This document shows, piece after piece, positions 5,988 to 12,251 of a stretch of DNA of 63,741 nucleotides. The notes beneath the pieces were generated by a model that saw only the letters and a list, made by a program, of their open reading frames with translations, was not told the origin of the DNA and ran no database searches. Within the stretch, counting starts at the first letter, position 1. Each line of letters starts with the position of its first letter. The translations under genes and the position numbers were made by a program. This DNA is from Phocaeicola plebeius (lineage in GTDB: Bacteria > Bacteroidota > Bacteroidia > Bacteroidales > Bacteroidaceae), in contig JALEPZ010000039.1 of the NCBI GenBank assembly GCA_022767125.1, positions 1 through 63,741 on the forward strand, given 5' to 3'.

Positions 5988-6048
5988 CAAGTAAACTAAC
6001 ATTCCCCTTACGAATGCATGATTTTCCAATAAAAAAAGTTTCATTTTA

Positions 6049-6079
6049 TTTGTTCGTTCAAAAAAAGCCTTTACCTTTG
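6049..6079 (+). promoter_or_regulatory. ilv operon promoter
   Basis: TTTG at 6049-6052, 19-bp spacer, TACCTTTG at 6072-6079: a full match to the Bacteroidetes promoter. Predicted start near 6086, about 20 nt before the leader peptide ATG. Confidence 0.75.
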
Positions 6080-6105
6080 CAGCCGAATAGAAAAAATGAG
6101 AGATA

Positions 6106-6201
6106 ATGAACGCAACTATTGTTCTACATAATTTGGCAGTCCTGCATATTCTTCGCGTCGTGGTCGTGGCACCAAGGGGTGAGAAAGGCTCGTGTATATA
6201 G
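6106..6201 (+). CDS. ilv operon leader peptide
   Basis: A 31-codon open frame directly after the ilv promoter. Thirteen of its codons are Ile, Val or Leu, including ATT-GTT-CTA at codons 5-7, GTC-CTG at 12-13, ATT-CTT at 15-16 and four Val codons in a row at 18-21. The last codons (25-28) form the first arm of an RNA pairing (6178-6189). This is the layout of leader peptides that sense charged branched-chain tRNA in enterobacterial ilv operons. The frame ends at TAG 6199-6201. A second short frame from the ATG at 6096 runs only 11 codons and lacks such codons. It is not an annotated family that I know in Bacteroidales; the call rests on composition and position. Confidence 0.75.
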   Translation: MNATIVLHNLAVLHILRVVVVAPRGEKGSCI

Positions 6202-6259
6202 TTGTATTGTAATATAGGTACAGAAGGCCTTTCTCACCGGATGATGAGAGAGGCTTTTT
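6178..6259 (+). promoter_or_regulatory. ilv transcription attenuator: antiterminator and terminator
   Basis: Three segments compete. Segment 2 (6178-6189, GGTGAGAAAGGC) pairs perfectly over 12 bp with segment 3 (6227-6238). Segment 3 also pairs, through 6227-6236, with segment 4 (6245-6254, TGAGAGAGGC; one G-U), forming a 10-bp hairpin followed by five U residues at 6255-6259, an intrinsic terminator 20 nt before the ilvD ATG. A ribosome stalled on the Val/Ile/Leu codons would leave segment 2 free and favour readthrough; a ribosome reaching the leader stop would cover segment 2 and allow termination. The mechanism is inferred from the enterobacterial precedent; the pairings are directly seen. 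Confidence 0.82.
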
Positions 6260-6279
6260 AATTGATAAGAAATAAGGAT

Positions 6280-8082
6280 ATGAAACATCAGTTACGCAGT
6301 TCGCTGAGCACGGAAGGCCGTCGTATGGCAGGCGCCCGCGCACTTTGGGTGGCCAATGGCATGAAGAAAGAAATGATGGGAAAGCCTATCATCGCCATCG
6401 TCAACTCGTTTACACAATTTGTTCCCGGACATACGCACTTGCACGAAATCGGTCAGCAGGTGAAGGCGGAAATCGAAAAGCTGGGTTGCTTTGCAGCCGA
6501 ATTCAACACAATCGCCATTGATGACGGTATCGCTATGGGACACGATGGGATGCTTTACTCCCTGCCATCCCGCGATATCATTGCCGACAGCGTGGAATAC
6601 ATGGTCAATGCCCACAAGGCGGATGCCATGGTCTGCATTTCCAACTGTGACAAGATTACTCCGGGAATGCTGATGGCTTCCATGCGACTGAATATTCCTA
6701 CTGTCTTCGTTTCGGGTGGACCGATGGAGGCCGGCGAATGGAACGGACAGCACCTGGACCTTATTGATGCCATGATCAAGTCGGCAGACCCGACGGTAGA
6801 CGATGAGGAAGTGGCTGAGATTGAACGTCATGCTTGTCCGGGTTGCGGTAGCTGTTCGGGCATGTTTACGGCCAACTCGATGAACTGTCTGAATGAAGCC
6901 ATCGGATTGGCATTGCCCGGCAACGGCACCATTGTGGCCACGCACAAGAATCGTGCCCGTCTGTTCAAGGATGCGGCTGCCCTGATTGTGAAGAATGCCT
7001 ACAAGTATTATAACGAGGGCGACGAGAGTGTATTACCCCGGAGCATCGCCACTCGTCAGGCTTTCCTGAACGCCATGACACTGGACATCGCTATGGGCGG
7101 ATCGACCAATACGGTGCTGCACCTTCTGGCGGTGGCCCATGAAGCCGAAGTGGACTTCAAGATGGATGATATCGATATGCTTTCACGTCGCGTACCCTGT
7201 CTGTGTAAAGTGGCTCCCAATACCCAGAAATACCATATCCAGGATGTCAACCGTGCAGGTGGCGTACTGAATATCTTGGGCGAACTGGCCAAGGGAGGCC
7301 TGCTGGATACGACAGTGCACCGCGTGGACGGAACAACGCTGGCAGAAGCCATCGAAAAATATAACATTTGTGCCTCTCAGGTGGATGAGGATGCTCTTCG
7401 CATCTATAGCAGTGCTGCCGGCGGCCAGTTCTGCATCAAGTTGGGATGGCAGGCAGCACAGTTCCAGGAACTGGACACCGACCGGGCTACGGGCTGTATC
7501 CGTGACCTGCAGCATGCCTATAGTAAGGACGGTGGCCTGGCTGTCCTAAAGGGTAATATCGCTCAAGACGGCTGTGTCGTGAAGACCGCGGGGGTAGACG
7601 AAAGCATCTGGCGCTTTGCGGGACCTGCCAAGGTGTTCGATTCACAGGAATCGGCCTGCGAAGGCATCTTGGGCGGCAAAGTGGTGAGCGGTGACGTGGT
7701 AGTCATCACTCATGAAGGCCCCAAGGGTGGACCGGGCATGCAGGAAATGCTGTATCCCACCTCGTACATCAAATCGAAACATTTGGGAAAGGAGTGTGCG
7801 CTCATTACGGACGGACGCTTCAGCGGCGGTACATCCGGCCTGAGCATCGGTCACATTTCTCCCGAAGCGGCAGCAGGTGGCAACATCGGTAAAATCGTGG
7901 ACGGTGACATCATCGAAATCGATATTCCCAACCGTAGCATCAATGTCCGCTTGAGTGACGAAGAGCTGGCGGCTCGCCCCATGGCTCCTGTCACCCGCGA
8001 CCGCAAGGTGTCGAAAGCCCTGAAAGCCTATGCAAGCATGGTAAGCTCGGCCGATAAGGGAGGCGTAAGAATCATTGACTAA
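6280..8082 (+). CDS. ilvD: Dihydroxy-acid dehydratase
   Basis: Dehydrates 2,3-dihydroxy-isovalerate and dihydroxy-methylvalerate to the 2-keto acids, the third common step of Ile/Val synthesis; an iron-sulfur cytoplasmic enzyme. 600 residues. Cluster and metal ligands are visible in [12 protein letters not shown] (about residue 120) and [13 protein letters not shown] (about 190). The C-terminal region shows [12 protein letters not shown] and [11 protein letters not shown]. The start is the ATG at 6280 rather than an in-frame TTG at 6262 that lies within the terminator tail. First structural gene of the operon, directly after the attenuator; ilvB follows after 15 nt. Confidence 0.97.
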
Positions 8083-8097
8083 ATTATCACAATCAAT

Positions 8098-9801
8098 ATG
8101 GAAAAACAACAGATTACAGGAGCAGAAGCGATGATGCGCTCGTTGGAGCACGAGGGAGTGAAGACTCTTTTCGGGTATCCCGGGGGAGCCATCATGCCGG
8201 TTTACGACGTGCTGTATGACCATCGTGACCGTCTGAATCATATATTAGTTCGACATGAACAGGGAGCTGCCCATGCGGCCCAAGGGTTTGCCCGGGTATC
8301 GGGCGAAGTAGGCGTATGCCTGGTCACGAGCGGGCCGGGTGCTACCAACACCATTACCGGCATTGCAGATGCCATGATTGACAGTACGCCTATTGTGGTG
8401 ATTGCTGGTCAGGTAAGTGCTGGCCTGTTGGGAACGGATGCCTTCCAGGAAGTAGACCTGGTGGGTGTTACGCAGCCTATCTCAAAGTGGAGCTATCAGA
8501 TTCGGCGGGCGGAAGACGTGGCGTGGGCAGTAGCCCGTGCGTTCTACGTGGCCCGTAGCGGACGCCCCGGTCCTGTTGTTCTCGACTTTGCCAAGAATGC
8601 CCAGATCGGCATGTGCGATTACGAACCGGTGAATCTTGATTTCATCCGTAGCTACGACCCCGATCCGGAAACAGATCCGCGTGCGGTAGGAGAGGCCGTT
8701 GCCCTCATCAACGAGGCCAGGAAGCCGCTGGTTCTGGTGGGACAAGGTGTCGAGTTGGGCAATGCGCAGGAAGAACTGAAGGCGTTTGTAGAAAAGGCGG
8801 ACATTCCTTGCGGATGTACCTTACTGGGACTTTCGGCATTGCCCTCTGATCATCGGCTGAACAAGGGCATGCTGGGCATGCACGGCAATCTGGGACCGAA
8901 TGTGAAGACGAACGAATGCGACGTGCTGATTGCCGTCGGCATGCGTTTCGATGACCGTGTGACGGGCAAGCTGGAAACGTATGCCAAACAGGCGAAAGTG
9001 ATTCACCTGGATATCGATCCGTCGGAAATCGGCAAGAACGTACCCGTGGATGTGCCTATCCTTGGCAACTGCAAGCGGACTTTATCGCTGCTCACCGAAC
9101 TGATTCAGAAACATGAACATACGGAATGGATTGACAGCTTCAAGCAGTATGAAGAGAAAGAATATAATCAGGTGATTCGTCCGGAGGTGTTCCCCGGTGA
9201 AGGCCCAATCAATATGGGTGAGGTGGTGAATGCCGTCAGTGAGGCGACCCGCCACGAAGCGGTACTGGTGACCGATGTCGGACAGAACCAGATGATGGCC
9301 TGCCGCTATTTCAAACACACGAAGAACCGGAGTGTCATTACATCGGGCGGTATGGGTACAATGGGCTTTTGCCTTCCCGCTGCCATCGGTGCTACCTTTG
9401 GTGCGCCGCACCGTACGGTCTGTGCCTTCATGGGCGACGGTGGACTGCAGATGACCATCCAGGAACTGGGTACGGTGATGGAACAGAAAGCTCCGGTGAA
9501 GATTGTGCTGATGAACAACAACTATCTGGGCAATGTGCGCCAGTGGCAAGCGATGTTCTTCCGCCACCGTTACTCGTTTACACCGATGATGAATCCCGAC
9601 TACCGCCAGATTGCTTCGGCCTATGGAATTGGTTATCGCCGGGTGATGGAACGGGAGGAACTGCAGGACGGTATCCGTGAAATGCTGGAAACAGAAGGAG
9701 CTTTCCTGCTGGAAGTCTGCGTGGTAGAGGAAGGCAATGTGTTGCCTATGACCCCTCCGGGCGGCTCGGTGAACTACATGATGCTGAATTTGGATTGCTA
9801 A
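8098..9801 (+). CDS. ilvB: Acetolactate synthase, large catalytic subunit
   Basis: ThDP-dependent condensation of pyruvate with pyruvate or 2-ketobutyrate, the committed step of Val/Leu/Ile synthesis. 567 residues in three domains: an N-terminal PYR domain with the catalytic Glu in HEQGAAHAAQG (about residue 51), a central FAD-type domain (about 190-330), and a C-terminal PP domain with the ThDP motif MGDGGLQMT then NNNYLGNVRQWQ (about 446-485). The biosynthetic type is supported by the adjacent ilvN. It is 15 nt after ilvD, with 21 nt to the small subunit. Confidence 0.96.
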   Translation: MEKQQITGAEAMMRSLEHEGVKTLFGYPGGAIMPVYDVLYDHRDRLNHILVRHEQGAAHAAQGFARVSGEVGVCLVTSGPGATNTITGIADAMIDSTPIVVIAGQVSAGLLGTDAFQEVDLVGVTQPISKWSYQIRRAEDVAWAVARAFYVARSGRPGPVVLDFAKNAQIGMCDYEPVNLDFIRSYDPDPETDPRAVGEAVALINEARKPLVLVGQGVELGNAQEELKAFVEKADIPCGCTLLGLSALPSDHRLNKGMLGMHGNLGPNVKTNECDVLIAVGMRFDDRVTGKLETYAKQAKVIHLDIDPSEIGKNVPVDVPILGNCKRTLSLLTELIQKHEHTEWIDSFKQYEEKEYNQVIRPEVFPGEGPINMGEVVNAVSEATRHEAVLVTDVGQNQMMACRYFKHTKNRSVITSGGMGTMGFCLPAAIGATFGAPHRTVCAFMGDGGLQMTIQELGTVMEQKAPVKIVLMNNNYLGNVRQWQAMFFRHRYSFTPMMNPDYRQIASAYGIGYRRVMEREELQDGIREMLETEGAFLLEVCVVEEGNVLPMTPPGGSVNYMMLNLDC

Positions 9802-9822: not shown

Positions 9823-10374
9823 ATGGAAAACAAGACATTATATACCATCATCGTCCACTCGGAAAACATTGCCGGTATTCTGAACCAGATTACCGCCGTG
9901 TTTACCCGTCGTCAGCTGAACATCGAGAGTCTGAACGTTTCGGCTTCTTCCATCAAGGGAGTCCACAAATATACCATCACTTGTTGGACAACCCCTGATA
10001 TTATTGAGAAGGTGGTCCGCCAGATTGAGAAAAAGCTGGATGTGATCCAGGCTCATTACTTTACGGACAAGGAAATCTTCCTTCGTGAGGTAGCTATGTA
10101 CAAACTGGAGACCCCCAAGCTCGAAGCGAATGCGGAAGTGTCGAAGGTCATCCGTCGTTATAGTGCACACATCGTGGAAGTGAACCAGGTGTTTGCCATC
10201 GTGGAAATGACGGGCATGAGTGCGGACATCACTTCGCTATATGAAGAACTGAAAGCCTTGAACTGCGTACTTCAATTCGTCCGCTCCGGACGCATTGCTG
10301 TGTCTACCAGCTGCTTCGAACGGGTGAATGAATACCTGGCCCATCGTCAGGAACGTTACGAAAAGGGTAAATAA
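9823..10374 (+). CDS. ilvN: Acetolactate synthase, small regulatory subunit
   Basis: Binds IlvB, raises its activity and confers valine feedback inhibition. 183 residues: an N-terminal ACT domain (YTIIVHSENIAGILNQI, about residues 5-80) and a C-terminal ACT-like domain (about 95-165) containing ETPKLEANAEVSKV. The N-terminal segment matches the IlvN/IlvH family, slightly longer than the usual 160-175 residues. Second domain motif FVRSGRIAVS is typical. Could equally be named ilvH. It sits between ilvB and the thioesterase gene with short gaps, so it is clearly in the same transcript. Confidence 0.95.
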   Translation: MENKTLYTIIVHSENIAGILNQITAVFTRRQLNIESLNVSASSIKGVHKYTITCWTTPDIIEKVVRQIEKKLDVIQAHYFTDKEIFLREVAMYKLETPKLEANAEVSKVIRRYSAHIVEVNQVFAIVEMTGMSADITSLYEELKALNCVLQFVRSGRIAVSTSCFERVNEYLAHRQERYEKGK

Positions 10375-10385
10375 ACCATAAAGGG

Positions 10386-11177
10386 ATGATGAGCAACGAA
10401 GGAAACAAAGTCGGTACGTACGAATTCGTGGTGGAGCCATTCCATACCGACCTGACAGGACAACTGACCATGGGAGTGTTGGGCAATCATTTGCTGAACT
10501 GTGCCGGTTTCCATGCGGAAGACAGGGGATTTGGCATGGCTTCCCTCCATGAGCATCACTACACATGGGTCCTTTCCCGACTGGCTGTAGAAGTGTTTGA
10601 ACAGCCTAAGGCTTATGAACGTTTCTCTATACAGACATGGGTGGAGAATGTTTACCGTCTGTTTACCGACCGTGACTTCGCTGTGCTCAATGCGGAGGGA
10701 AGGCCAGTGGGGTATGCCCGGTCTATCTGGGCCATGATTGATCTTGACACCCGTAAGCCGGCTGACTTGCTGACCCTCCACGGAGGCAGTATTACGGACT
10801 ATATCTGCGGAAAGGAATGTCCCATCGAGAAGCCCGGACGCATCAAGGTGACGAACGGAGAGGTGGCCGGCGAACATCAGGTCCGGTATAGCGACATCGA
10901 CATCAACGGGCATGTGAACAGTATTAAATACATCGAACATATACTCGACCTGTTCCCGATGGAGCTGTTACGCGACCAGGGTATACGCCGGTTTGAAATG
11001 GCATATGTAGCCGAGAGTTATTATGGCGATATGCTGACATTTACCCGTGAGGAGATTCGTCCTGGCGAATACGATATCGAAGTGAAAAAGAACCATGCCG
11101 AGGTGGTGGTCCGCAGCAAAGTACTATTTAACGCTTCGGCTTCTGTAGAGGAAGCCGGAGACAAGAAAGAAGAATAA
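10386..11177 (+). CDS. Acyl-ACP thioesterase (FatA/FatB-like), inside the ilv operon
   Basis: Predicted to hydrolyse acyl-ACP and release free fatty acids. 263 residues with two hot-dog domains: the first around residues 10-135 (HEHHYTWVLSRLAVEV), the second around 155-250 with the conserved segment VRYSDIDINGHVNS that carries the Asp/Asn/His residues of plant and bacterial acyl-ACP thioesterases. Two adjacent ATGs (10386, 10389) are possible starts. The gene lies 11 nt after ilvN and 30 nt before ilvC, so it is under the ilv attenuator. The link to branched-chain metabolism is an inference: branched 2-keto acids are the primers of iso/anteiso fatty acids and sphingoid bases abundant in Bacteroidales. 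Confidence 0.88.
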   Translation: MMSNEGNKVGTYEFVVEPFHTDLTGQLTMGVLGNHLLNCAGFHAEDRGFGMASLHEHHYTWVLSRLAVEVFEQPKAYERFSIQTWVENVYRLFTDRDFAVLNAEGRPVGYARSIWAMIDLDTRKPADLLTLHGGSITDYICGKECPIEKPGRIKVTNGEVAGEHQVRYSDIDINGHVNSIKYIEHILDLFPMELLRDQGIRRFEMAYVAESYYGDMLTFTREEIRPGEYDIEVKKNHAEVVVRSKVLFNASASVEEAGDKKEE

Positions 11178-11207: not shown

Positions 11208-12251
11208 ATGGCAAAAATGAATTTTGGCGGTGTTATCGAAAATGTTGAAACCCGCGAAGAATTTCCTTTGGACAAAGCACGTGAAATCTTGAAAGACGAA
11301 ACTATCGCTGTAATCGGTTACGGTGTACAGGGCCCCGGCCAGTCGCTGAACCTTCGTGACAACGGCTTCAATGTCATCGTTGGCCAGCGTCAGGGTAAGA
11401 CTTACGAGAAGGCGGTTGCTGACGGTTGGGTTCCGGGCGAAACTTTGTTTGACATCAAGGAAGCTTGCGAACGTGCTACTATCATCGCCGTTCTGTTGTC
11501 GGATGCCGCACAGATTGCTGTATGGCCTACTATCAAAGAAACACTGACTCCGGGCAAGGCATTGTACTTCTCGCACGGTTTCGCCATCAACTGGAGTGAC
11601 CGTACAGGCGTTGTTCCTCCCAAAGATATCGACGTAATCATGGTGGCTCCTAAAGGATCGGGTACTTCTCTGCGTACGATGTTCCTGGAAGGCCGTGGCT
11701 TGAACTCTTCGTATGCTATTTACCAGGATGCCACCGGAAAGGCATGGGATCGTGTGATTGCTATGGGTATCGGTATCGGTTCGGGTTACCTGTTTGAAAC
11801 TACTTTCAAGCGTGAAGCTACTTCCGACTTGACCGGTGAACGTGGTACACTGATGGGAGCTATCCAAGGCTTGCTGTTGGCACAGTATGAAACACTGCGT
11901 GAACACGGACACACTCCTTCGGAAGCTTTCAACGAAACTGTGGAAGAGCTGACTCAGTCGCTCATGCCGCTGTTTGCAGCCAAGGGTATGGACTGGATGT
12001 ATGCCAACTGCTCGACGACGGCCCAGCGGGGTGCTTTGGACTGGATGGTTCCGTTCCACGACGCTACCAAGCCCGTGTTCGAAAAGCTGTACAAGTCGGT
12101 ATGCGACGGCTTGGAAGCACAGCGTTCTATCGACTCCAACTCTCAGCCGGATTATCGTGAAAAGCTGAATGCAGAACTGAAGGCACTGCACGACAGCGAA
12201 ATGTGGCAGACTGCCGCTGTAGTTCGTCAGCTCCGTCCTGAAAACAACTGA
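11208..12251 (+). CDS. ilvC: Ketol-acid reductoisomerase (NADP+)
   Basis: Second step of Ile/Val synthesis: isomerisation and NADPH reduction of acetolactate. 347 residues, a class I enzyme. The Rossmann motif GYGVQGPGQSLNLRDNG (about residues 36-52) differs from the common GYGSQGHAxxxNLRDSG in carrying Pro-Gly in place of the usual His-Ala pair. Acid residues for Mg2+ are in SDLTGERGTLMG (about 207-218), and the C-terminal knotted domain has the NCSTTAQRGALDW segment (about 268). Last gene of the ilv operon; a long hairpin (12278-12358) follows. Confidence 0.95.
   Translation: MAKMNFGGVIENVETREEFPLDKAREILKDETIAVIGYGVQGPGQSLNLRDNGFNVIVGQRQGKTYEKAVADGWVPGETLFDIKEACERATIIAVLLSDAAQIAVWPTIKETLTPGKALYFSHGFAINWSDRTGVVPPKDIDVIMVAPKGSGTSLRTMFLEGRGLNSSYAIYQDATGKAWDRVIAMGIGIGSGYLFETTFKREATSDLTGERGTLMGAIQGLLLAQYETLREHGHTPSEAFNETVEELTQSLMPLFAAKGMDWMYANCSTTAQRGALDWMVPFHDATKPVFEKLYKSVCDGLEAQRSIDSNSQPDYREKLNAELKALHDSEMWQTAAVVRQLRPENN

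Follow-up and report, generated by a model that had tools for sequence, protein, structure and literature searches.

The ilvD gene of Phocaeicola plebeius is preceded by a short leader reading frame, rich in codons for isoleucine, leucine and valine, and by two RNA stems that share one arm. We found these features in a window of 63,741 nucleotides, which is the whole stretch of DNA analysed here. The leader and the competing stems are real. Very probably, they constitute a ribosome-mediated transcription attenuator responsive to branched-chain aminoacyl-tRNA. This reading, already put forward in the original prediction, is supported by two lines of evidence. First, the frame, stems and promoter recur in the Bacteroidales. 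Second, the leader codons match the product of the pathway here and at the leu, his and trp operons.

All features are on the forward (+) strand and coordinates are positions in the window. A TTTG sequence is located at positions 6049–6052 and is separated by 19 nt from TACCTTTG (TAnnTTTG) at positions 6072–6079. By the Bacteroides −33/−7 consensus, we take these elements (6049–6079) to be the −33 and −7 elements of a Bacteroides-type promoter; the −7 box also recurs in relatives. A generic σ70 scan did not list a promoter at 6049–6079, and such scans do not cover promoters of the Bacteroides type. The leader ORF (6106–6201) starts with ATG at position 6106 and ends with TAG at 6199–6201. It encodes the peptide MNATIVLHNLAVLHILRVVVVAPRGEKGSCI and 13 of its 31 codons specify Ile, Val or Leu. 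The last dense group of control codons is a run of four consecutive Val codons, GTC GTG GTC GTG, at 6157–6168. A second ATG frame, of 11 codons (6096–6131), overlaps the leader start and is out of frame with it. Region 2, the 5′ arm of the antiterminator (6178–6189), lies within the end of the leader ORF. It pairs with region 3 (6227–6238) and all 12 of the 12 pairs are Watson–Crick. Region 3 is a shared arm, being both the 3′ arm of the antiterminator and the 5′ arm of an intrinsic terminator. The 3′ arm of the terminator is region 4 (6245–6254). The assignment of all three regions draws on pairing and on alignment with relatives. A U5 tract (6255–6259) follows and is the predicted release point; the terminator stem can be extended outward into this tract through A–U pairs. 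The ilvD start codon, ATG at 6280, is downstream of the T5 sequence at 6255–6259. When the sequence was read base by base, the promoter, the 31-codon leader with its 13 Ile/Val/Leu codons, the four-Val run and the perfect 12 bp antiterminator all agreed with the original prediction. The predicted 10 bp terminator was correct in position, in length and in its T5 sequence, but one pair of 6227–6236 with 6245–6254 is G–U and only nine are Watson–Crick.

The first gene of the putative regulated operon is ilvD (6280–8082; PF00920, PF24877). It is followed by ilvB, for the large subunit of acetolactate synthase (8098–9801; PF02775, PF00205 and PF02776, with the name taken from context), and ilvN, for the small subunit (9823–10374; PF10369). 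An acyl-ACP thioesterase gene (10386–11177; PF01643, PF20791) sits inside the cluster, between ilvN and ilvC. The ilvC gene (11208–12251; PF07991, PF01450) encodes ketol-acid reductoisomerase. The genes ilvD-ilvB-ilvN-thioesterase-ilvC presumably form one transcript. Upstream of the cluster is a gene assigned by Pfam to an RNA pseudouridine synthase.

We compared the ilvD upstream region with those of relatives. Two sources supplied the relatives: named genome contigs (the best 80 of at least 596 confirmed) and genomes drawn from within the genus, the family and the order; for some of the genus, family and order draws only part of the matches was fetched. The window and 244 loci, 245 records in all, yielded 229 distinct upstream regions, after removal of those that repeated an identical last 250 nt or had less than 150 nt of upstream sequence. 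A joint signature was then scored. It required an intrinsic terminator together with an upstream stem that competes with it (combined score of at least 50) and, close to arm 2, the end of a leader frame whose Ile/Leu/Val excess reaches P ≤ 0.05. The signature was present in 124 of the 229 distinct regions, window included, compared with 0 of 687 dinucleotide shuffles. With the loosest setting (a score of at least 40 and any leader frame) the counts were 140 of 229 real regions and 17 of 687 shuffles. The 105 regions that fall below the thresholds include some that have a leader and miss one threshold. Hence, the counts are probably low. For instance, locus L084 fails on its P value (0.085) and L122 on its stem score (48.5). 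A sliding scan of the window (1154 windows of 330 nt, both strands) returned two matches, which overlap and are both on this site. We also counted the TAnnTTTG box in 123 of the 124 passing regions, the remaining one being too short in sequence. The box was found no more than 75 nt from the leader start in 116 of the 123, compared with 121 of 2460 mononucleotide shuffles.

By draw, the distinct regions that pass are 37 of 43 for the genus, 14 of 21 and 7 of 39 for the family, 20 of 26 and 15 of 20 for the order, and 30 of 79 for the named contigs. Judged by the names on the records, the passing loci belong to Phocaeicola, Bacteroides, Tannerella, Candidatus Azobacteroides, Dysgonamonadaceae, Paludibacter, Saccharicrinis, Alistipes, Odoribacter, Marinifilum and Labilibaculum. 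Thus, as the original prediction anticipated for orthologous ilvD leaders, the leader frame, the competing stems and the promoter box recur in many Bacteroidales. Among the 11 loci from Prevotella, Prevotellaceae or Marseilla, one passes (L029). The switch is below the thresholds in the other 10 (L010, L016, L018, L019, L022, L025, L028, L030, L031 and L036). It was also missing, at the thresholds used, from 32 of the 39 distinct regions in the further family set (L185–L224). The absence from the Prevotella-type loci and from the further family set suggests loss of the switch and some other control of the pathway. The failing locus L010 still carries an Ile/Leu/Val-rich frame. None of the 13 kept loci from outside the Bacteroidota passes (Fibrobacter, Spirochaetes, Treponema, Desulfobulbaceae and others); a fourteenth, L075, was dropped because its upstream sequence was too short. 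Some of the 29 phylum-level ilvD loci that we read, such as L311, L319 and L320, have Ile/Leu/Val-rich frames; this reading covered frames.

To assess covariation we aligned 118 distinct regions that pass, all of them selected because they contain stems; cells in this alignment count relatives and not events. Of the cells for the 10 terminator pairs of the window, 94.7% hold a standard pair. This compares with 47–69% when the 3′ side was slid by 1–3 columns and with no more than 89.8% in 300 shuffles (mean 88.6%). Double changes occupy 61 cells, compared with at most 17 in the slid and 22 in the shuffled controls. For the 12 antiterminator pairs the equivalent values are 89.7% of cells, 43–60% when slid and no more than 87.6% when shuffled (mean 86.4%), with 35 double-change cells compared with at most 23 slid and 20 shuffled. 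The shuffles stay highly paired because the alignment columns vary little, and the pairing percentages are inflated because the 118 regions were selected for stems. Two further antiterminator measures did not beat the slid controls: eight pairs have a double change, compared with up to nine, and there are 25 extra pair types, compared with up to 25. Hence, of the covarying stems sought in relatives, the terminator is clearly seen (61 double-change cells against at most 22 in controls), but covariation of the antiterminator is modest (35 against at most 23, with the two other measures negative). When arms were swapped between regions, own arms paired better in only 1910 of 3100 comparisons. This test is weak because the arms hardly vary. 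The sequence AGAAAGG is conserved in arm 2. We considered pairing of this motif with the 16S rRNA tail and dropped the idea; the tail pattern matched 0 of 5 genomes and most leu arm 2 sequences are without the motif.

We next consider the geometry of the leader. Across the 124 passing regions, arm 2 starts at a median of 13 nt past the last dense control codon. The distance is at least 9 nt in 85% of the regions, at least 12 nt in 73% and below 9 nt in 15%. For a terminating ribosome we assumed a footprint from −17 to +14 relative to the stop codon. On this assumption, the median overlap of the ribosome with arm 2 is 11 nt, and 91% of the 124 regions have an overlap of at least 6 nt. In the 118 distinct leaders the stop codon is inside arm 2 in 63 cases, after it in 41 and before it in 14. 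In the window, the Val run ends with the codon at 6166–6168, arm 2 begins at 6178 and the stop codon is at 6199. The stop codon therefore follows arm 2, 21 nt from where the arm begins. Under the assumed footprint, the arrangements of stop codon and arm 2 would suit a classical attenuation switch.

Folding predictions were made for the same leader. The free segment from 6172 to 6262 folds to the antiterminator (−28.2 kcal/mol). Masking the stretch under the terminating ribosome results in the terminator fold (−20.2 kcal/mol). Thus, the two stems are predicted to compete. For the untranslated leader the two states are equal (−42.8 compared with −42.6 kcal/mol). Folding of the window leader gave no clear protector (1:2) hairpin.

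We propose that the leader would operate as follows. Transcription would start ~20 nt before the leader, as judged from the promoter, and a ribosome would trail the polymerase along the leader. With Ile, Val and Leu tRNAs charged, the ribosome would reach the stop codon at 6199 and cover region 2. Region 3 would then pair with region 4 and transcription would stop at 6255–6259. With charged tRNA short, the ribosome would stall on the Ile, Leu or Val codons, most likely those of the Val run, and region 2 would be left free. Pairing of region 2 with region 3 would then block the terminator and ilvD-ilvB-ilvN-thioesterase-ilvC would be transcribed. Leader translation, ribosome stalling and a change in read-through at the predicted attenuator are all steps that we infer from the DNA sequence.

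The strongest argument for ribosome-mediated sensing, as the proposed function, is that leader codons match the pathway product at each of four operons in a single genome. In the genome of the window, hisG has a His-rich leader, MILRYAHHRHHAPNTNEG, with a terminator and a competing stem. The leuA leader, MNALFLHILLCGLLILLVKPVGSESCA, is rich in Leu and Ile and both stems are present. The trp leader, MNTQLTNTFFWWRRLQLPKS, is rich in Trp and has a terminator; a competing stem was not found there by the scan. Within the genus, a leader, terminator and competing stem occur together at 28 of 30 leuA loci and 25 of 30 hisG loci, compared with 0 of 300 shuffles in each case. At trp loci the full set occurs at 2 of 20 (0 of 200 shuffles), and a leader with terminator alone at 20 of 20 (0 of 200 shuffles). 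The leader patterns for leu, his and trp were written after the leaders had been seen, and the stem settings were slightly looser than in the ilvD test. Under the different limits of a previous scan, 25 of 30 leu loci and 26 of 30 his loci were positive. A generic leu pattern found both stems at 22 of 30 real loci, compared with 3 of 300 shuffles. The shuffle controls for leu and his offset the modest covariation of the ilv antiterminator; hence, our confidence in attenuation is unchanged. By eye, the leu (L394) and ilv (6227–6271) terminators of one genome are very similar, with the identical stretch TTTTTAATTGATAA. Upstream of thrA, short frames bearing Thr, Ile and Met codons and ending MT(P/L)(R/Q)G are found in 9 of 10 loci (L384–L393, where L384 is the genome of the window). 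In the four of these loci that were folded (L384, L389, L390 and L393) the frames precede a TTTCTACGTGA...hairpin stretch that the loci have in common; these four loci gave no clear intrinsic terminator and no Rfam match at gathering level, and we do not claim an attenuator at thrA.

The leaders themselves bear on whether codons or the peptide would be sensed. Within Phocaeicola and Bacteroides the leader core NLAVLHIIRVVVV is well kept. This would be consistent with an arrest peptide, in which the nascent chain stalls the ribosome and senses free branched-chain amino acids, not uncharged tRNA. We regard this as improbable since one would expect a motif to be conserved in such a peptide, yet across the order distant leaders, which were partly picked for their Ile/Leu/Val content, have little in common except that content. 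Likeness in Ile/Leu/Val content only fits codon sensing. Similarly, the his and trp leaders vary around runs of their own residue. Differences between related leaders fall at codon position 3 in 156 of 354 cases (P = 1.7 × 10−5; 34 independent leader pairs).

The RNA arms bear on a second alternative. The terminator could be a fixed damper, or be set by a protein, Rho or a small RNA, with the short frame incidental or encoding a small protein. The unusually constant arm sequence, GAGAAAGG/CCTTTCTC, does resemble a binding site. However, three relatives (L166, L242 and L243) have quite different arms and retain the three-way pairing; in L242 and L243, for example, the arms are wholly different. 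Furthermore, the terminator is accompanied by a second stem that overlaps the leader end, the leader has a third-position excess, and codon content matches product at four operons of one genome. We consider this alternative to be slightly less probable than an arrest peptide. Control by a known riboswitch or T-box is far less probable still. The position and the terminator would fit, but the sole Rfam match in the window at gathering level is to a distant tRNA. Between 6000 and 6300 there are 10 matches at E ≤ 10. These belong to unrelated kinds of family and score far less than the gathering thresholds; Rfam models of attenuators, riboswitches or T-boxes do not match this interval, either at gathering level or at E ≤ 10. 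Least probable of all is a chance arrangement: the codon content of the leader is by itself just modestly unlikely (P = 0.007, uncorrected, with an assumed background of 0.22), but none of the 687 shuffles passed the joint thresholds, no other site emerged from the 1154 windows and the signature recurs in relatives.

Bacteroidia ribosomes fail to recognise Shine–Dalgarno sequences (PMC9976891), and an attenuator of this kind needs close coupling of transcription and translation. This is why the ilv leader matters. We think it likely that Bacteroidales run leader-peptide attenuators of the enterobacterial style, for ilv, leu, his, trp and perhaps thr, and do so without Shine–Dalgarno initiation. 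If so, they must keep the first ribosome near RNA polymerase, at least over these leaders. On the same view, the ilv and leu switches, being alike in terminator sequence, may share an origin, and the ilv switch has been lost from most Prevotella, which must regulate the pathway in some other way. The original prediction described coupling in this phylum as debated; we found no support for this among the papers listed, judged by their titles and the openings of their abstracts. A translation-dependent attenuator would be a built-in reporter of transcription–translation coupling. Recurrent, product-matched leaders make the tightness of coupling directly testable in genetically tractable gut commensals. 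The ilv leader also offers a mechanism for setting branched-chain amino acid synthesis in these bacteria.

Leader-peptide attenuation of branched-chain operons is well known in Escherichia coli. The enterobacterial ilvGMEDA, ilvBN and leuABCD operons likewise have an Ile/Leu/Val-rich leader frame, a mutually exclusive antiterminator and terminator, and a terminator just ahead of the first biosynthetic gene. Unlike the enterobacterial leaders, the leader described here has a Bacteroides-type promoter and no clear protector hairpin was found in it. The gene order, ilvD-ilvB-ilvN-thioesterase-ilvC, also differs. In addition, 63 of 118 Bacteroidales leaders, though not that of the window, place the stop codon inside antiterminator arm 2. 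Vitreschak et al. (2004) reportedly mention Bacteroidetes/Chlorobi in their abstract and may have predicted this leader earlier. A description of this ilv leader did not turn up among the matches listed, from a search with most subscription journals outside its range.

In 2010, before presenting their own Firmicutes case, the authors of PMC2965389 knew of no leader peptide system outside the Proteobacteria and Actinobacteria. For the Bacteroidetes, Rfam RF01692 (Bacteroid-trp) is listed as cis-regulatory in PMC2864571. We detected RF01692 in 38 of 60 genomes of the same genus at E ≤ 0.001, with 33 of 60 above the cut-off, and a short frame with WW was present in 20 of the 20 loci read. This element is from the same phylum and genus, but has Trp codons and precedes trp genes. 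It does not match the ilv leader (gathering level, or E ≤ 10 in 6000–6300), nor the trp leader of the same genome (E ≤ 0.001, or gathering level). In B. thetaiotaomicron, short frames resembling leaders are noted within long 5′ UTRs (PMC7366714). A transcriptome paper, PMC9723704, reports strong clues that operons for amino acid biosynthesis in Flavobacterium psychrophilum are controlled by leader-peptide attenuation. That organism is of the same phylum, but is a flavobacterium, and the passage concerned mentions no ilv leader and presents no covariation. Thus, the kind of device was already known, from RF01692 and the flavobacterial clues. What is added here is the ilv case, its spread in the Bacteroidales, its absence at the thresholds used from 10 of 11 Prevotella-type loci, and the product-matched set of leaders.
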